Positions 1 through 9,876 of a DNA stretch of 64,000 bases are shown here, piece after piece. Made by a program: the position numbers and the translations under genes. How positions within the stretch are numbered: the stretch's first letter is position 1; each line of letters starts with the position of its first letter. Where the stretch lies: contig JACQZU010000021.1 in assembly GCA_016213735.1 (NCBI GenBank), positions 62,001-126,000 of the forward strand, given 5' to 3'. The DNA comes from Acidobacteriota bacterium (GTDB taxonomy: Bacteria > Acidobacteriota > Holophagae > Holophagales > Holophagaceae). Below the pieces are notes generated by a model. It was not told the origin of the DNA. It did no database searches and saw only the letters and a program-made list of their open reading frames with translations.

Positions 1-1
1 C

Positions 2-1501
2 ACGCCAATTCTTCTGGAGGAGGCTGCGCTTCATCAACAGCAGGGCGGTCACAAGGATCGGCTAATTCTTGCGGTTTCGCGGTTATGGTCAAATGACCAA
101 ACAAAAGTCCCTATCGATGAATGGAGAAGGACCGCGTTGGTTTATGAAACACCCAAGGCCGAAGGCGAGCGCGCGCGAGATGAAAGCTTGGCAATTCTTC
201 GTAAATGGATGGTTTCTCGTTCCGATGCCATTGTTGTTATTGGCGGAAAATGGTGGCAGGCAGTGAGTGGGCGTTCTGGCGTTCCCTTGGAGCTAGGGCA
301 CGCCATAGAACGAGGACTTCCATGTTTCCTGCTGGGCGGACTCGTTGGGGCTGCTCAGGACTTCGTCAAACAGCATCCCGAAGTACTCGGCCATCTGAAG
401 AACGGACTAAATGAAGAGGCGAACAGAGAGTTTGCTACGCGAGATGATGTCGGAAGTCTCGCTGAGGAAATTTGCACGCAGTTGGAGCGATTACCGCTTG
501 TTCGCGGAAACGCTTCCGAAGGTGTCTCTTTCCGAATTCTCGCCTTGGATGGCGGGGGCCTAAAGGGCGCTTTCACTGCCGCAGCTATCGCCACATGGGA
601 AAAGCACACCGGGCTAAAGGCAGTCGACCACTTCGATCTGATCGCCGGAACTTCAACCGGAGGCATTCTCGCGATAGGTCTGGGATTGGGACTGTCAGGC
701 CAGCAAATGCTAAACTTCTATCGAAATCGGGGTCCGGTGATTTTTCCGATTACCCGCCTCCGAAGCCGATTGCGCCGCAACGTGCAACATATTTTCAGGC
801 CGAAATACGCTCAAGAGGTGTTGCTTCGTGAACTGGAATCTGCTTTCTACGCTGGCAACAAAACCGTCCATTTGAAGCAGTCGCGGTGCCGATTGGTGAT
901 TCCTACCTATCACTCGGTCGCAGGCGCATCCCACCAATTTCGTACCCCTCATCACCCAGATCTCACGGCCGATGCCCAAACGGAAGCCGCCCACGCGGCA
1001 CTTGCTACAGCTGCCGCCCCTACATTCTTCAGTGCCGCTAAGATTGCGAACATGGTCGCCGAAAGCAGCTACTTCGACGGCGGCGTGTGGGCCAACTCTC
1101 CCGGGATGGCAGCAATAATTGAGGCAGTATGCTTTTTGCGAATTCCATTGGAACGCATTGACGTGTTGAGTGTCGGCACCACGGAAGAACCCTTTACGAC
1201 GCGCTGGCAAACACGTTCAGGAATTCTTGGATGGCTCTGGAAGAAGAGGATTATCGAACTCTTGATGAATGTTCAGCAGGAATCTTCGCTTCGTCTTGCC
1301 CGTCATCTGGTGGGCGATCCTAAGTTTCTCCGAGTCAACGCCATGACTGCCCCAGGAAGCTATTCCCTTGATAGTCCGAAGGAGATTGGCGAGCTAGCCG
1401 ATCTCGGTAACCGAGCAGCGCTCGTGCCCGACGTGCTCGGACAGGTCAAATCACGCTTCTTGAACGGAGTTTCAGTTGCGCCATGGGAACGCTTCGGCTG
1501 A
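2..1501 (+). CDS. SLOG-patatin phospholipase, 5' end outside window
   Basis: The frame is open from base 2 without a stop, so the gene starts left of the window; the TTG at 137 is only an internal candidate. The first ~160 visible residues look like a SLOG/LOG-like Rossmann domain: a hydrophobic strand DRLILAVS, then DAIVVIGGKWW, then GVPLELGHAIERG. A patatin domain follows with DGGGLKG (oxyanion hole), GTSTG (nucleophile Ser) and a distal DGG (catalytic Asp); counted from base 137 these are residues 138-144, 171-175 and 314-316. Patatins of this kind hydrolyse membrane lipids, and related SLOG domains (for example in ThsA) bind NAD-derived or other nucleotides. A nucleotide-triggered, membrane-degrading defence effector is inference. 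Base composition is clearly less GC-rich than the neighbours, suggesting transfer. The patatin call is firm; the SLOG call is moderate. Confidence 0.85.
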   Translation, partial: TPILLEEAALHQQQGGHKDRLILAVSRLWSNDQTKVPIDEWRRTALVYETPKAEGERARDESLAILRKWMVSRSDAIVVIGGKWWQAVSGRSGVPLELGHAIERGLPCFLLGGLVGAAQDFVKQHPEVLGHLKNGLNEEANREFATRDDVGSLAEEICTQLERLPLVRGNASEGVSFRILALDGGGLKGAFTAAAIATWEKHTGLKAVDHFDLIAGTSTGGILAIGLGLGLSGQQMLNFYRNRGPVIFPITRLRSRLRRNVQHIFRPKYAQEVLLRELESAFYAGNKTVHLKQSRCRLVIPTYHSVAGASHQFRTPHHPDLTADAQTEAAHAALATAAAPTFFSAAKIANMVAESSYFDGGVWANSPGMAAIIEAVCFLRIPLERIDVLSVGTTEEPFTTRWQTRSGILGWLWKKRIIELLMNVQQESSLRLARHLVGDPKFLRVNAMTAPGSYSLDSPKEIGELADLGNRAALVPDVLGQVKSRFLNGVSVAPWERFG

Positions 1502-2222: not shown

Positions 2223-4514
2223 CTACCCCGCGTGCTCCAGGGCCTCGGGCAGGACGCGGTCGTGGATGGCCTGCAGTTCGGCGACGGGGGCGTCGAGGAG
2301 GGGGCTGCCGTCCACGGCGAGGGTGAAGTGGCGGCCGCCGGTGACGCCGATCTTGGCAAAGGGGACGCGGTGGGCCTCGCAGAGGGCCTGGAGGGCGGAC
2401 TCCCCGGCGGGGCTGAGGCTCACCACCGCGCGGCCGGCGCTCTCGCCGAAGAGCAGGGCGTCCAGGCGCAGGCCGCCCCGGTGCAGCAGGAGCTGGCAGC
2501 CCATGCCGCCCCCGAAGGCGCTTTCCAGCACCGCCACCACGAGACCTCCCTCGCTGCAATCGTGGGCGCTGCGGAAGAGGCCCAGACGAACCCCCTCGCG
2601 CAGGCAGGCCTGGAGACCGTGCTCCTCGTCGAGGCGCAGTTCGGGGCAGGGACCGTACACGGAGCCGGTGCGCAGCTTCAGGTATTCGCTGCCGCCGATC
2701 TCGTTCCGGTTCTCCCCCAGGAGGTAGACGGCGTCGAAGGGGGCGCGGAAACCCGAACCGCAGAAGCGGTTGCCCACCTTCGACAGGGCCGTGGCGTCCG
2801 GGGCGTCCACGTCCACGGGCAGGGCCGCGTCCTCGATGAGGCCCACGGCGGCGATCATGGGGGTGGGGAAGATGCTCACGCCTTCGGTGTCGTTGTAGAG
2901 GCTCACGTTGCCGCTCACCACGGGCACGTCCAGGGCCAGGCAGGCCTGGCGGATGCCGAGGCAGCCCTGCTGGAAGGCCCACATGTTCTCCGGCTTCTCG
3001 GGGTTGCCGTAGTTGAGGCAGTCGGTGAGGCCGATGGGCTCGGCGCCCACGCAGGCCAGGTTCCGGCAGGCCTCGGCCACCGCGTGGGCGGCGCCCCAGA
3101 AGGGGTCCAGGTAGCCGAAGCGGCCGTTGCAGTCGCTGGCCACCGCCACCGCCTTGTCCGTGCCCTTCACCCGGATGAGGCCGGCGTCGCCCTCTCCCTG
3201 GCCCAGCAGGGTGTTGCCCCGCACGGTGCCGTCGTACTGCTCGTAGATCCACCGCTTGCTGGCGACCGTGGGGCAGGCCAGCAGGCGGCGAAGGGTGGCC
3301 TCGGCTTCGGAAGGGGCCAGGTCCGGCGGCAGGGGCCGGCCCTGAACTTCGTCCAGCCAGGCGGGCCGCTCCCGGGGCCGGTCGTACTTGGGGGCGGCGT
3401 CCGCCAGGGGCTGGATGGGCAGGTCGATGACCTTCTCGCCGTGGAAGAGCCCGACGAAGCGGCCGGAGGTGGTGACCTCGCCGATGACCACCGCGTCCAG
3501 GCCCCACTTGTGCAGCACCTTCTGCACGTCGGGCTCGTGGCCGGGCTTCGCCACAAGGAGCATGCGCTCCTGGCTCTCGCTGAGCATGAGCTCGAAGGGG
3601 GTCATGCCTGTCTCGCGCATGGGCACCTGGTCCAGGCGCAGCTCCAGGCCCGTGCCCGCGCGGCTGGCCATCTCGAAGCTGGAGGAAGTGAGCCCCGCCG
3701 CCCCCATGTCCTGGATGCCGATGATCCAGTCGGTCTCGAAGAGTTCCAGGCAGGCCTCCAGCAGCAGCTTCTCGGTGAAGGGGTCCCCCACCTGCACCGT
3801 GGGCCGCTTCTCCTCGCTGCCCTCGCCGAACTCCGCGCTGGCCATGCTGGCGCCGTGGATGCCGTCCCGGCCGGTCTTGCTCCCGATGTACATCACCTTG
3901 TTGCCGGGGCCGGACGCATACCCTCGGAAGATGCGGTCGCTCCTCATCACCCCCAGGGTGAAGGCGTTCACCAGGATGTTGCCGTTGTAGCAGGCGTCGA
4001 AGGCGCAGTCCCCGCCCAGCATGGCGATGCCCATGCAGTTGCCGTAGCCCGCGATTCCGGCGGCCACGCCCTTCACCAGGCCCTTCATGCGCGGGGCGTC
4101 CAGCTCCCCGAAGCGCAGGGAGTTCATGTTCGCCAGGGGCCGGGCGCCCATGGTGAAGACGTCCCGCAGGATGCCGCCCACCCCCGTGGCGGCCCCCTGG
4201 TACGGCTCGATGAAGCTGGGGTGGTTGTGGCTCTCCATCTTGAAGCACACGGCCCAGCCATCGCCGATGTCCACCACCCCGGCGTTCTCCCCGGGACCCT
4301 GGAGCACCCGGGGGCCCTCCGTGGGCAGGTTCTTCAGGTGGATCCGGCTGCTCTTGTACGAGCAGTGCTCGCTCCACATGGCGCTGAAGATCCCCAGCTC
4401 GGGGTAGGTGGGGATGCGGCCGTCCAGGAGGCGCAGCAGGGTCTGCCATTCGTCGGCGGACAGGCCCAGCTCCCGCGCCAGGGCTTCGTTCACGACGGGA
4501 TCGGCGACGGCCAT
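2223..4514 (-). CDS. purL: Phosphoribosylformylglycinamidine synthase, PurL subunit
   Basis: The 763-residue length matches the small, PurS/PurQ-dependent form of FGAM synthase, the ATP-using step of purine synthesis that converts FGAR to FGAM with ammonia from PurQ. Family landmarks include [14 protein letters not shown] near residue 50, the [10 protein letters not shown] motif, the glycine-rich [13 protein letters not shown] stretch, and the central [15 protein letters not shown] segment. ATG at 4514 is preceded by a G-rich ribosome-binding site. No purS or purQ is in the window. It is transcribed in the same direction as the PilZ genes upstream, 24 bases from the stop of the nearest one, so co-transcription is possible. 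Confidence 0.97.
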
Positions 4515-4538: not shown

Positions 4539-5657
4539 CTAACCGGGGCGGCCCTCTTCCCCCGCCCGGCGCAGCAGCCCCTCCGCGAGGCGCCGGAAGA
4601 AGACCGCGCGGCCCGGGGACCAATCCAGGTAGCTCGCCTTCAGCTCCGTGGCCAGTTCCTGGCCTCCCTTGGCCCCCGGGGTGCCCAGGAGGACCCGGGC
4701 GGTGCCCTCGGGCAGGGCCTCGACGAGGGACTTCACCAGGAAGCGCTCCTCCAGGTCTCCCCTCGAAAGGTGCAGGATGGCCAGGCGGGGCGGCGTCTCC
4801 AGGGCCTCGAGGAGGGGGGCCAGGGCCGGGGCGCAACGGCGCAGGGGAACGGACTCTCCCAGGGCCGCCCGGAGGGCCGATTCCAGGGGCCCTCCGCGCC
4901 CCACGAGGAGGGCGCCCTCGGGACGGGCCCGGGGGCGCATCCGGGACGCCGCCTCCGCGAGCAGGGCGGCCCGGTTCTCCCAGCGCTGCCGGGCCCCGTC
5001 GGCCTCCGGAAGGAGCCAGGCCTCCAGGTCAGCCCTGGCGCGGCCTTCCGGAGGAGGGTCGAATTGGACCCCCAGGCTGGGCCCGTCCTGGTGGATGGCC
5101 CGCACCCAAAGGTCCATGCGAGGGCCACGGTCCAGGTTGAGGCTCAGGCGAAAGGCGCTGCGCCCCACCAGGGGATCCGCCAGGTTCTCCGCGAGGGAGA
5201 CCCTGGCCCCGCCGAGGGAGAGGTCCTCCACCCGCCCCGGAACGAGCCTCTGGCCGTCGGGATTCAGGGTGACCCGGCACTCCTGGGCGGGATGCACCCG
5301 GAGCCAGCTTCGCCGCTCGTCCGGGGCGAGCTGGGGGGGCGCGGCGATGCGGAGGATCCGGCGGCCCTGCTCCTGGCCGAACCCCAGGAGGCGGGTCTCC
5401 CCCGCCACCATGCCCAGGGCCCAGGGAACGCGAAGGCGGAAGGTCTGGACGCTGAGGGCCTTGAGGGCACCCTCCCCCCCCAGGGCCACGCGAAGGTGCA
5501 GTTCATCTCCCCGCCAGGCCAGCAGATGCGCCGGAAGGGAAAGGTAGGGGGTGGCCAGCAGCACGAAGGCCCGCCGTTCCGAGAGTTCCTCCAGGACCGC
5601 ACCCAGGGCGGCGCCCAGGATCGACTCCCCCGCCGGGGACCCCAGAGGTTCCGTCAC
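4539..5657 (-). CDS. PilZ protein with YcgR-like N-terminus and receiver-like C-terminus (copy 1, divergent)
   Basis: A 372-residue protein in three parts. Residues ~25-105 resemble the N-terminal domain of YcgR-type PilZ proteins (ATPYLSLPAHLLAW...). Residues ~112-225 are a PilZ domain with the c-di-GMP-binding signature RxxxR (R116-R120) and D145LSLGG150. Residues ~260-365 form an alpha/beta segment resembling a receiver but without the normal acidic pocket and phospho-Asp context. No signal peptide or membrane segment is seen. The ATG overlaps the stop of the next upstream paralogue by 4 bases (5654-5657), so the two are translationally coupled. This is the most diverged of the three local copies. 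A c-di-GMP-responsive role, perhaps in motility, is inference. Confidence 0.85.
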   Translation of the reverse strand: MTEPLGSPAGESILGAALGAVLEELSERRAFVLLATPYLSLPAHLLAWRGDELHLRVALGGEGALKALSVQTFRLRVPWALGMVAGETRLLGFGQEQGRRILRIAAPPQLAPDERRSWLRVHPAQECRVTLNPDGQRLVPGRVEDLSLGGARVSLAENLADPLVGRSAFRLSLNLDRGPRMDLWVRAIHQDGPSLGVQFDPPPEGRARADLEAWLLPEADGARQRWENRAALLAEAASRMRPRARPEGALLVGRGGPLESALRAALGESVPLRRCAPALAPLLEALETPPRLAILHLSRGDLEERFLVKSLVEALPEGTARVLLGTPGAKGGQELATELKASYLDWSPGRAVFFRRLAEGLLRRAGEEGRPG

Positions 5658-6784
5658 AGCTCCGCTTCCGACGGGGCCAGGGGGCTCTCTCCGCCTTCAT
5701 GGTGTCGCCGGATGATTCCCTGCACCAGACGCTGGAAGAATGGCGCCCTGTGCGGTCCCCACACGAGGGCACTGGAAGCCTTCCATTCCGAGGCCAGTTC
5801 GAAGAGGACCGCGCCGTCCATGTCCGATCCCAGGAGCAGCACGGGTGCACGGCCCGCCGCGATCTCGGCCAGGGCCTTGGTTCGGCGCCGGTCGTCCAGG
5901 GAGGTGCCCGGCAGGTGGAGGATCACCAGGGCCGGCCGGCTCTGGAGGGCTTCCTTGAGGTTCTGGGCGGTGGGCGCCACCCGAGCCAGGGGGTGCGTGG
6001 TCGGAAGGGCGATGCGGAGCTGGTGCTCCAGACCCTCTCCCGCCGCCACCAGGATGATCCCCCGGGGGGGCAGGGAGAGGCCCGAGGGGCGCCCGGTCTG
6101 CAGGCCCAGCTCCAGGCGCCTCGCCATGCGCTCCCGCTCCTCCTCCCGGCGCTGAAAGACCCAGCGGGAGAGCGGCTCCAACAGGGTCTTGGGCAAGGGC
6201 GGCCGGAACTCCACCCCGAAGGAACGGCCTTTGAGGTGGCGCACCAGGGCGTGGCCGTTGATGATGATCCCCTCCTGGACGGGAATGGTCAGGGCGATTT
6301 CCTGTCCCACGTCCAGACTCTGGCGGGGGATGTCCTCCGAGGCGTGGAGGCGCGCGCCCGTGACGCTGATGTCGGACAGGGAAGCCTGGTACAGGTCCGG
6401 CTTCGGAGTGCTGAAGGTCACTCCGATGCGCCCCACCCGTTCCACGCGGTAGGCCACCCGCTGATCGTTCTCCACCAGGGTCGATGGGATGCTCAGGCGG
6501 AGGGTCCGCCGCTGCCCCAGCAGGCCAAGCCCCTTCATCTCCACGTCGGCCTCGTAGAAACCCAGGCCGTGGGGAAACCGGATCTTGAGGCCCGGGGCCT
6601 TGAGGCCGAAGACCGCGTCGTCCCGGCTCATGGTGGCGAGGGCATGGAGCTCCGATCCCTCCAGCCCCGCGAAGCTGGACTCGAACCGCAGGTAGGGCGT
6701 CACCAGGATCAACATTTCCCGGCGGGCGCAGGCGTCCTGCAGGATCTCCCGCACCTCGCTGGATTTCCGGATGGCGGTGGCCAA
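5654..6784 (-). CDS. PilZ protein with YcgR-like N-terminus and receiver-like C-terminus (copy 2)
   Basis: A 376-residue soluble protein. The N-terminal domain carries LILVTPYLRFESSF near residue 25 and IRFPHGLGFYEADV near 68, both shared with copy 3. The PilZ domain retains R109VAYR113 and D138ISVTG143, the usual c-di-GMP contacts. A charged helix (QRREEERERMARR) links it to a C-terminal Rossmann-like or pseudo-receiver segment (~250-365). It is divergent from copy 3 across 105 bases and overlaps copy 1 by 4 bases. Known PilZ/YcgR proteins couple c-di-GMP to flagellar braking or surface behaviour; the C-terminal partner is unknown. Confidence 0.88.
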   Translation of the reverse strand: MATAIRKSSEVREILQDACARREMLILVTPYLRFESSFAGLEGSELHALATMSRDDAVFGLKAPGLKIRFPHGLGFYEADVEMKGLGLLGQRRTLRLSIPSTLVENDQRVAYRVERVGRIGVTFSTPKPDLYQASLSDISVTGARLHASEDIPRQSLDVGQEIALTIPVQEGIIINGHALVRHLKGRSFGVEFRPPLPKTLLEPLSRWVFQRREEERERMARRLELGLQTGRPSGLSLPPRGIILVAAGEGLEHQLRIALPTTHPLARVAPTAQNLKEALQSRPALVILHLPGTSLDDRRRTKALAEIAAGRAPVLLLGSDMDGAVLFELASEWKASSALVWGPHRAPFFQRLVQGIIRRHHEGGESPLAPSEAEL

Positions 6785-6802
6785 CGGGGACTCCTTCCGA
6801 AC

Positions 6803-6830
6803 TCACACCCCGGGGCCGGGATGCCGATGA
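6803..6830 (+). promoter_or_regulatory. Possible FliA (sigma28)-type promoter before PilZ copy 3
   Basis: GCCGATGA at 6823-6830 resembles the sigma28 -10 element GCCGATAA. A weak TCAC lies 16 bases upstream, where consensus would be TAAA with 15. It is weaker than the similar elements before the two chemoreceptor genes, and GCCGAT can arise by chance in GC-rich DNA. It would give a leader of ~50 bases to the ATG at 6890. Confidence 0.3.
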
Positions 6831-6889
6831 CTGGATCGGTCCAATTCCACCAGAAGTGTAGCCCCAGGCGGGGGAGGTGCCGGAAGCAC

Positions 6890-8011
6890 ATGGCGGGACA
6901 GAGCATTCGGAACCCGGAGGCCGTCCGGGAGGCGCTGGGAAAGGCCAGCGAGCGGGGGGAGCTCCTCATCCTGGTGACGCCCTACCTGCGCTTCGATTCC
7001 ACCTTTCTCCGCCTCGAGGGGGACACCCTCCTGGTGGCCGCCACCATGAGCCGGGAGGACGCCCTCTCGGGGCTGCGGTCTTCCGAACTCTGCTTTCGCT
7101 TCCCCCATGGTTTCACCTTCTACGAGGGGGCCACCCAGCTGCTGGGCCTCGGCATGGTGCGGGGGCGGGCCGCGCTGAAGCTCCGGGTGCCGACCGCCCT
7201 GGAGGAGGACGACCACCGGGGGGCGTACCGGGTGGAACGGGTGGGGCGGGTGCCGGTCACCTTCAGCACCCGGAAATACCAGCTCCTCACCGGCAGCCTG
7301 GTGAACATCAGCACGACCGGGGCCCGCATCCATTCGGGACGGGAGTTCGAGGACCAGGAAGTCCAGGTGGAAGACGGGATCATGGCCACCATTCCTTTGG
7401 AACCCGACATCCAGATCAACGGAAAATGCGTGGTGCGTTACCTCCACGGCCGCAGCATCGGGGTGGAGTTCAAGCCCCGCCTGGAGGGCCCTCTGCTGGA
7501 AAGCCTGAGCCGATGGACCTTCCGCAAGCGGGAGGAGGAGAGGGAGCGGACCCAGCGGTTGCTGGTGGCGGGGGAGGCCCTGGCGGCCGCCCCCGCAGGC
7601 CCCACGGCCGTCCAGCCCGTTGGAGTCCTGCTTGTGTCCAGCAGCCCCCACCTGGAGGACCGCCTCAGGGAGCTGCTGGGGGAGCTCTCCTTCGCGCGGG
7701 TGCCTCCGACGGTCCAGGCCCTCAAGAACCTGGTGCCGGGCAAGGCCATCGTCATCCTCCATGCCCCCGCCCTGGGTCTGGATGACCGGAAGCACCTCCG
7801 CTCGCTGGTGGACGCCCTGGGGGGGCGCTTCCCGATCCTGCTCCTGGGCACGGGCGTCCAGAACGCTTCCCTGGGGACATTCGGCCAGGAGATCAAGGCC
7901 GGGGCCACCTTCCTCCTCGGTGGAAATCCCGGGACGATCTTCCTGCGCCTGGTCCAGGGCATGTTGAAGCGTCATTTCCCGCAGCCCGGGTTGGAATCGG
8001 AGGAGGCCTGA
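6890..8011 (+). CDS. PilZ protein with YcgR-like N-terminus and receiver-like C-terminus (copy 3)
   Basis: A 373-residue protein, closely related to copy 2 over its full length (LLILVTPYLRF, FRFPHGFTFYEG, the ~100-120 PilZ entry, and the charged RKREEERERTQR linker). PilZ signature residues are R110GAYR114 and N139ISTTG144. The C-terminal ~110 residues begin VGVLLVSSSPHLEDRLREL and read like a receiver fold that has lost its phosphorylation site. The ATG at 6890 was chosen because GGGGGAGGTG sits 10 bases upstream and because the start then lines up with copy 2; the open frame continues upstream without homology. It is divergent from the other two copies. Confidence 0.88.
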   Translation: MAGQSIRNPEAVREALGKASERGELLILVTPYLRFDSTFLRLEGDTLLVAATMSREDALSGLRSSELCFRFPHGFTFYEGATQLLGLGMVRGRAALKLRVPTALEEDDHRGAYRVERVGRVPVTFSTRKYQLLTGSLVNISTTGARIHSGREFEDQEVQVEDGIMATIPLEPDIQINGKCVVRYLHGRSIGVEFKPRLEGPLLESLSRWTFRKREEERERTQRLLVAGEALAAAPAGPTAVQPVGVLLVSSSPHLEDRLRELLGELSFARVPPTVQALKNLVPGKAIVILHAPALGLDDRKHLRSLVDALGGRFPILLLGTGVQNASLGTFGQEIKAGATFLLGGNPGTIFLRLVQGMLKRHFPQPGLESEEA

Positions 8012-8229: not shown

Positions 8230-9876
8230 ATGGGCGCGCCCCCGAAGACCCTGCTCCTCTACAGCGCCCCCCGCTCCGGCTTCGGGGACGAATGGATGCG
8301 CTTCCTCCCCATCGGCCTGGGCACCCTCCAGGCCATGCTCAAGGGGCGGGGTTACCCCTGCCGCCTGGCCAACCTCAGCGGGATGGGGCGGAAGGAGGTC
8401 CTGGCCTACCTTCGCGGCCAGGGCCCGGGCCTGGTGGGCGTCTCCATGTTCACCTTCAACCGCAAGCGCAGCGCCGACCTGCTGAAATGGGCACGGGAGG
8501 CCTGCCCGGGGGCCCTTCTCCTGGCCGGAGGACCCCACCCCACCCACCTGGCCGAGGAGGTCTTCGAGGAGTGCCCGGCCCTGGATGCCATCGTCCGGGG
8601 CGAGGGTGAGCCCATCCTCCTGGGCGTCGTGGAACGCCTGGCCGCGGCGCCCGGCACGGACCTTTGGAAACGCACCCCGGGCCTGATCCTTCGCGAAGGG
8701 GAGACAGCCCCCCAGCCCGTGCAGGAGGACCTGGACGCCATCGGCCTTTCCGCGGAGCACCTGGAGGCGGACTTCCTGGACGACGTGGGCCAGCTGGCCT
8801 ACCTGAGCACCAGCCGCGGCTGTCCGGCCACCTGCAATTTCTGCAACACGCCGGATTTCTGGGGCACCGCCATCCGCTTCCGCAGCCCGGAGTCCGTGCT
8901 CCGGGAGATGCGGCTGCTGCGGGAACGCCACGGCCTCACCTACTTCAGCTTCCGGGACGACACCTTCACCGCCAACCGGGAACGGGTGCTGCGCCTGATG
9001 GCCGGCATCCGGGAGAGCGCCCTTCACCCCCTCTGGAACTGCCAGAGCCGGGTGAACCTGGTGGACGAGGAGCGCCTGGTGGCCATGAAGCGCGCGGGCT
9101 GCGAGTTCATGCAGTTCGGCGTCGAACACGGCAGCGAGCGGGTGCTGGCCCTCCTGGACAAGGGCACCAACATGCGCCACGCCCGGCGGGCCCTGTCCCT
9201 GGTGCGGAAGGTGGGGATGAACCTGGGCATCTACCTCATCACGGGAATCCCGGGGGAGGACTGGGCCGACGTCCAGGAGAGCCTCTCGCTGATCGAACAG
9301 ACCCGGCCCCACGACGTGCAGGTCTCTCCCCTGGCCCTCTACCCCGGGACCCGGCTCTTCGACCGGTACCGGGCCGAGGGCCGGATCAGCCGCGACTTCT
9401 ACCGCAGCCTGGGGGACGCGGAGGTCTTCGCCCGCCAGGACGCCCACACGGAGCGGGCCCTGAGGGCGCTCTACGAGGCGGCCCAGGCCGTCAAGCCCCG
9501 GGCCCGGTACACCCCCGCGGAGTTCGCGGAGCAGAAGCGCTTCCTGGGCTTCTGCTCCGTCACCAACCTGCTCTGCGGGGAGGCCGCCGAGGAGACCGGA
9601 AGCCTCCGCGAGGCCGAGGCCGAGTACGCCGAGATCATCGCGAAGGAGCCCGCCAACCCCTGGGGCTGGATGAAGCGGGCCCTGCTCCGCCACCGCTGCG
9701 GCCGCCACGCCGAAGCCCGGGCGGACCTGGGTGAAGTGCTGGCGCTGGCCCCCGGGAATCCCGAGGCGGAGGAACTGCGCGCCACCTGGAGCGCAGGGAG
9801 GAAGGGGAGGGCCCGCCCCAGGCCCGCGGCCGAGATGAAGGGCGGGGAGGCCTTCCTCGAGGGGGGCTCCCGGTGA
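8230..9876 (+). CDS. B12-binding radical SAM protein with C-terminal TPRs
   Basis: 548 residues. Residues ~5-130 look like a cobalamin-binding Rossmann domain (RFLPIGLGTLQAMLKGRGY, then VGVSMFTFN and LLLAGGPHPT). The radical SAM core follows with the CxxxCxxC iron-sulfur motif in SRGCPATCNFCNTPDFWG near residue 197. The region after ~420 has TPR-like helical repeats (EAEYAEIIAKEPANPWGW). B12-radical SAM enzymes methylate or rearrange unactivated carbons of lipids, antibiotics and cofactors. Neighbours give no substrate. The start has no ribosome-binding site and may be leaderless. Confidence 0.88.
   Translation: MGAPPKTLLLYSAPRSGFGDEWMRFLPIGLGTLQAMLKGRGYPCRLANLSGMGRKEVLAYLRGQGPGLVGVSMFTFNRKRSADLLKWAREACPGALLLAGGPHPTHLAEEVFEECPALDAIVRGEGEPILLGVVERLAAAPGTDLWKRTPGLILREGETAPQPVQEDLDAIGLSAEHLEADFLDDVGQLAYLSTSRGCPATCNFCNTPDFWGTAIRFRSPESVLREMRLLRERHGLTYFSFRDDTFTANRERVLRLMAGIRESALHPLWNCQSRVNLVDEERLVAMKRAGCEFMQFGVEHGSERVLALLDKGTNMRHARRALSLVRKVGMNLGIYLITGIPGEDWADVQESLSLIEQTRPHDVQVSPLALYPGTRLFDRYRAEGRISRDFYRSLGDAEVFARQDAHTERALRALYEAAQAVKPRARYTPAEFAEQKRFLGFCSVTNLLCGEAAEETGSLREAEAEYAEIIAKEPANPWGWMKRALLRHRCGRHAEARADLGEVLALAPGNPEAEELRATWSAGRKGRARPRPAAEMKGGEAFLEGGSR

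Follow-up and report, generated by a model that had tools for sequence, protein, structure and literature searches.

YcgR-like PilZ proteins with a C-terminal pseudo-receiver co-occur with flagella in the class Holophagae

The control of flagella by cyclic di-GMP (c-di-GMP) is known in detail for only a few lineages. YcgR contacts the motor proteins MotA, FliG and FliM (PMC12713396), and in Leptospirales a lineage-specific variant, YcgR-GAZ, has gained an added domain, multiplied into paralogues and largely replaced canonical YcgR (PMC11800159). PixA of Myxococcus xanthus, in which a PilZ domain is followed by a C-terminal receiver, also binds c-di-GMP and regulates motility (PMC8316039). Here we analyse three linked genes encoding PilZ proteins, A, B and C, in a 64,000-nucleotide stretch of DNA (hereafter the window) from an Acidobacteriota bacterium of the family Holophagaceae, class Holophagae (GCA_016213735.1, contig JACQZU010000021.1, positions 62,001 to 126,000). 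We consider it likely that these proteins form a branch of YcgR-type effectors that is specific to Holophagae and acts on the flagellar motor in response to c-di-GMP, a reading that draws on their domain layout and on their co-occurrence with flagella across the class.

Domain layout of the three proteins

The open reading frames lie as the original prediction had placed them. A (4539-5657, reverse strand, 372 amino acids, GTG start) and B (5654-6784, reverse strand, 376 amino acids, TTG start) overlap by 4 bases (5654-5657), and C (6890-8011, forward strand, 373 amino acids) diverges from B. The coding sequence of C, with an ATG start at 6890, sits within a longer open frame, and its end at 8011 is confirmed. 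Between B and C lies a 105 bp spacer (6785-6889) that presumably contains promoters; inspection of the spacers by eye recognised no conserved flagellar promoter motif. The three proteins are homologous and align over their full length, B being 47% and A 30% identical to C.

All three match the Pfam PilZ family (PF07238), with E values of 9.8e-9, 4e-8 and 2.7e-7 and scores of 35.9, 34.0 and 31.3 bits against a curated cut-off of 22.5. The domain occupies 5013-5318 in A and 6152-6463 in B, both on the reverse strand, and 7223-7522 in C on the forward strand. PilZ was the sole Pfam match above the curated cut-off, with no N-terminal Pfam model matched, and an NCBIfam search of the three proteins gave no matches. 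The RxxxR and (D/N)xSxxG motifs are intact in each protein (in C, RGAYR at residues 110-114 and NISTTG at residues 139-144) and nearly invariant in the family: among 60 Holophagaceae homologues, both arginines, the D/N position and the glycine are kept in all 60 and the serine in 59. On the basis of these motifs, A, B and C would be predicted to bind c-di-GMP, in line with the original prediction, which had suggested that the proteins may be c-di-GMP responders.

To the N-terminal side of PilZ, structure prediction found a domain that sequence profiles miss. A full-length AlphaFold model built with 32 family members had a mean predicted local distance difference test score (pLDDT) of 87 and a predicted template modelling score (pTM) of 0.44, so that the domains are reliable but their arrangement is not. 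When this model was compared with the PDB using Foldseek, the top match was YcgR with c-di-GMP (5y6f, E = 5.7e-13), followed by PP4397, MotI, VCA0042 and MrkH, and the isolated YcgR-N domain (5y6h) was matched with a TMt of 0.80 and a root-mean-square deviation of 2.5. These matches indicate that the N-terminal third is a YcgR-N-like barrel, as had been proposed from the sequence; in C it is a split barrel with an extra N-terminal helix (6890-7210, forward strand, residues 1-107). Neither the alignment nor the model has an insertion between this barrel and the PilZ domain.

From the PilZ domain a long helix leads to a C-terminal domain, which the alignment places at 4569-4934 in A and 5711-6079 in B (reverse strand) and which spans 7613-7987 in C (forward strand, residues 242-366). 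Modelled alone from 63 sequences, this domain was predicted to be a (beta-alpha)5 fold with its elements in the order E-H-E-H-E-H-E-H-E-H (pLDDT 93.6, pTM 0.88). Its top Foldseek matches in the PDB were Rcp1, TadZ, BfmR and DrrB (E = 4e-4 to 9e-4), and receivers or pseudo-receivers, including TadZ (4lda) and CpaE (4n0p), make up most of the best 50 fold matches listed. A family profile searched against PDB sequences likewise reached receivers (3eq2, E = 0.0016; FleR, 0.012; PhoP, 0.02); the Pfam Response_reg model (PF00072) matched one of the 63 members, at an E value of only 0.17.

The residues that receivers use for phosphorylation are nevertheless gone. With catalytic positions assigned by eye from an alignment to receivers and the predicted secondary structure, the phospho-Asp position is occupied by histidine in 56 of the 60 Holophagaceae sequences (His291 in C), the receiver Thr/Ser by glycine in all 60, the first acid of the acidic pair by serine, and the lysine mostly by asparagine or glycine, before a proline. 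In the sister family described below, four of five sequences (L027, L028, L030, L031 and L032) have glutamate at the phospho-Asp position. Glutamate at this position is often taken as a mimic of phosphorylation. Judged by these residues, the domain is a pseudo-receiver, one that by its sequence cannot be phosphorylated by the usual chemistry. Pseudo-receivers have been defined as domains that are computationally recognised as receivers and lack one of five residues (PMC12632262); here residues are missing, and recognition as a receiver came from the fold and the family profile, not from PF00072. The original prediction of a receiver-like domain without the phospho-Asp is supported by the structure comparison it had proposed.

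Co-occurrence with flagella and loss of the genes

To relate the family to flagella, we searched 93 genomes of the class Holophagae with the family profile and with FliG_C. The family was matched in 61 of the 93, nearly all as full-length members, with one to several copies per genome. Among the 60 near-complete genomes (completeness of 90% or more, contamination of 5% or less), FliG and the family were both present in 39 and both absent from 21, and none was discordant. The seven discordant genomes, all less than 90% complete, comprise three with the family and no FliG (G073, G078 and G079) and four with FliG and no family member (G069, G075, G076 and G077). A Fisher test of the association gave 1.3e-16, a value to be read knowing that relatives are not independent. 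On a tree of alanyl-tRNA synthetase (AlaRS), five changes are required to explain the flagella-less state; supported branches force four of these, and all independent contrasts agree (four on supported branches, five on the best AlaRS tree). As controls, 58 of the 60 near-complete genomes have some PilZ domain and 57 have PilM, a marker of type IV pili, so neither PilZ domains in general nor pili explain the flagellar pattern. This co-occurrence is the strongest clue to function; the original prediction, whose description of the layout holds, had missed it.

A second, independent line of evidence comes from the locus. A survey of gene neighbours, which had also been proposed, revealed that 26 relatives share the order radical SAM gene, divergent PilZ gene and purL. 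Four Geothrix genomes without flagella still have the radical SAM gene and purL, approximately 135-146 bp apart, but no PilZ gene between them; the start of the remaining spacer resembles the radical SAM/PilZ spacer of flagellated Geothrix and its end resembles their PilZ/purL spacer. Both intergenic flanks remain; the PilZ gene was therefore lost cleanly in the lineages that lost flagella, and its neighbours were kept. We also considered the radical SAM protein and PurL as functional partners of the family and rejected them, as both genes are kept in flagella-less Geothrix without the PilZ gene.

Homologues also occur in a sister family within the class, most likely Acanthopleuribacteraceae. 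They are more distant and still have the C-terminal domain. The neighbourhood there is different from that in Holophagaceae: in three genomes the homologue lies near cheA, and two of these also have cheW and a PAS/HAMP chemoreceptor-like gene nearby. Outside the class, a sample of 297 Acidobacteriota genomes yielded no family member at an E value of 1e-25 or better. The PilZNR family that covers YcgR N-termini (PF12945) was matched in one of the 93 class genomes, which is not that of the window, and the same search detected no PilZNR-type YcgR in flagellated Holophagaceae. With PF12945 absent from all but this one genome, the family described here may fill the role of PilZNR-type YcgR.

A tree of the family places A, B and C in three distinct, supported clades. 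Each clade also includes proteins from other genera, and a recent duplication was rejected on this ground. A is the most divergent paralogue, on a long branch whose exact place is unsure, and the single copy of Geothrix is closer to C than to A or B. At least two other lineages (G008 and L064) share the three-gene arrangement, indicating that the set is old. As ancient paralogues, A, B and C probably have different partners, affinities or expression, and the earlier suggestion that the proteins have diverging partners is compatible with the old divergence of their clades. In some genomes the copies are broken: one PilZ copy in G005 (L018) is interrupted by a TAG stop, and those in L069 are split into adjacent open frames, which suggests either that paralogues are decaying in some genomes or that the assemblies contain errors.

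A proposed role at the flagellar motor and its alternatives

If the proteins act as YcgR does, rising c-di-GMP would be held by the RxxxR segment on one side and the DxSxxG loop on the other, and binding would change the orientation of the YcgR-N-like barrel relative to that of PilZ. The re-oriented protein could then act on the stator protein MotA, on the rotor proteins FliG/FliM or on both, with the outcome that motor speed is lowered or the rotation bias changed. The pseudo-receiver would most likely serve as a docking or dimerisation surface. A more specific version is that the pseudo-receiver mimics CheY within a YcgR-type brake, docking on FliM/FliN without phosphorylation, so that c-di-GMP and not CheA sets motor speed and direction and the paralogues tune different motor states; we regard this version as quite unlikely.

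Several points weigh against a role at the motor. Any switch, like the domain arrangement, is not readable from a predicted full-length model with a pTM of 0.44. The Holophagaceae genes are outside any flagellar operon and adjoin purL and the radical SAM gene. Flagellated Acidobacteriota outside the class do not have the family, which is therefore no universal component of the motor, and with only four to five independent losses a sign test cannot reach 0.05. Finally, chemotaxis genes are normally lost together with flagella, and the target could therefore be the chemotaxis pathway.

This last point raises the alternative that survives best, although we hold it to be rather unlikely: the proteins would be motility-linked effectors that act not on the motor but on CheA/CheW arrays or on CheY output, with the pseudo-receiver competing with or imitating CheY at CheA or FliM. 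Co-occurrence cannot separate this possibility from a motor role. A CheY-like fold fused to a sensor would suit it, as would the cheA, cheW and chemoreceptor-like genes near the Acanthopleuribacteraceae homologues. However, no che gene was recognised among the examined neighbours of the Holophagaceae loci, and the fold of the whole N-terminal part is closest to those of YcgR and MotI, both described as targeting motor proteins (PMC12713396).

Another alternative is that the pseudo-receiver acts as an additional c-di-GMP site or senses a ligand, making the protein an integrator of two signals. There is precedent in Caulobacter ShkA, whose pseudo-receiver binds c-di-GMP on its alpha4-beta5-alpha5 face (PMC12632262), and the conserved core and near-invariant histidine at the phospho-Asp position of the present family could be read in this way. 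We consider this very unlikely, as no binding motif was identified in the pseudo-receiver and the glutamate in most sister-family sequences argues against one shared ligand chemistry there. We give equally little credence to regulation of a non-motility target, for instance type IV pili or exopolysaccharide, with the family following flagella only through a shared lifestyle. Pili and polysaccharide synthesis are frequent targets of PilZ proteins, and the position of the Holophagaceae loci would fit such a role, but other PilZ genes persist in flagella-less genomes, the loss in Geothrix removed a single gene from an otherwise unchanged locus, and the near-complete genomes include no discordant case. 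A type IV pilus link in particular was considered and found unsupported, PilM being present in 57 of 60 genomes with or without the family. The weakest alternative, that the C-terminal domain is another flavodoxin-like fold (for example B12-binding-like) and not a degenerate receiver, draws on the near-silence of Response_reg and on Foldseek matches to the B12-binding domains of acyl-CoA mutases (4r3u and 2yxb), and is highly improbable given that the family profile finds PDB receivers by sequence alone, that receivers and pseudo-receivers dominate the best 50 listed fold matches and that the B12 histidine motif DxHxxG was not seen in the domain alignment.

Flanking genes and comparison with known families

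The genes that flank the locus are conserved and are not thought to be part of its function. purL (FGAM synthase; 2223-4514, reverse strand) lies 25 bp downstream of A on the same strand. On the other side, a B12-binding radical SAM protein with C-terminal TPR repeats (8230-9876, forward strand) adjoins the PilZ locus across Holophagaceae at 66-81% identity and had no NCBIfam equivalog above the cut-off; because flagella-less relatives retain its gene, it does not belong to the flagellar set. Between a cupin gene and purL (2109-2202) are short tandem repeats with units of 6, 12 and 18 bp, and a similar stretch encoding Ser/Asp lies further upstream (L094, approximately 2400-2550), so this may be a dispersed repeat. 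A candidate defence locus resembling Thoeris lies within window positions 1-1498 and the preceding 3 kb outside the window (G000:C12:60715-63498, equivalent to L094 4715-7498). It has two neighbouring ThsB-type TIR genes (PADLOC ThsB, E = 1.9e-55 and 1.4e-58), which are directly followed by a gene for a 567-amino-acid protein with an N-terminal SLOG (LD_cluster2) domain and a C-terminal patatin phospholipase domain, placing a phospholipase where the ThsA effector usually stands. The G+C content at the third codon position of the patatin gene is 0.54, against approximately 0.9 in most neighbouring genes, and a CAP12/PycTIR-like TIR gene lies further upstream.

Taken with their distribution, A, B and C suggest that a whole class of Acidobacteriota uses a previously undescribed YcgR architecture of its own, in which the sensor is fused to a degenerate receiver and which exists as several old paralogues. 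The close match between gain or loss of the family and that of flagella yields a specific prediction for cultured Geothrix with a single copy, and the family offers a natural case in which to ask what role a pseudo-receiver plays once phosphorylation is lost. The original prediction had noted that no described family is known to have this exact layout; we likewise found no paper describing YcgR-N, PilZ and a pseudo-receiver together in the open-licence literature, where absence is not proof.

YcgR of E. coli, like MotI/DgrA of B. subtilis and PlzD of Vibrio, shares with the window proteins the split barrel, the PilZ domain with RxxxR and DxSxxG and the tie to flagella, and is the best fold match. 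YcgR ends after PilZ and a C-terminal helix, whereas the window proteins add a long helix and the pseudo-receiver, have an N-terminal domain that PF12945 does not recognise and are encoded by three linked paralogues outside any flagellar operon. The pseudo-receivers of TadZ and CpaE have the same CheY-like fold, in proteins not known as phosphorylated response regulators; these are pilus assembly proteins, not PilZ proteins, and their pseudo-receivers are joined to ATPase domains. The nearest described families are PixA and YcgR-GAZ, but a defining feature sets each of them apart. In PixA the phosphorylation residues are retained, Asp180 among them, whereas in the window family the phospho-Asp is replaced; the numbering of PixA leaves no room for YcgR-N, and PixA acts on pilus and gliding motility instead of flagella. 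In YcgR-GAZ the extra domain is a GAF-like insertion within YcgR, whereas in the window proteins it is a C-terminal pseudo-receiver.

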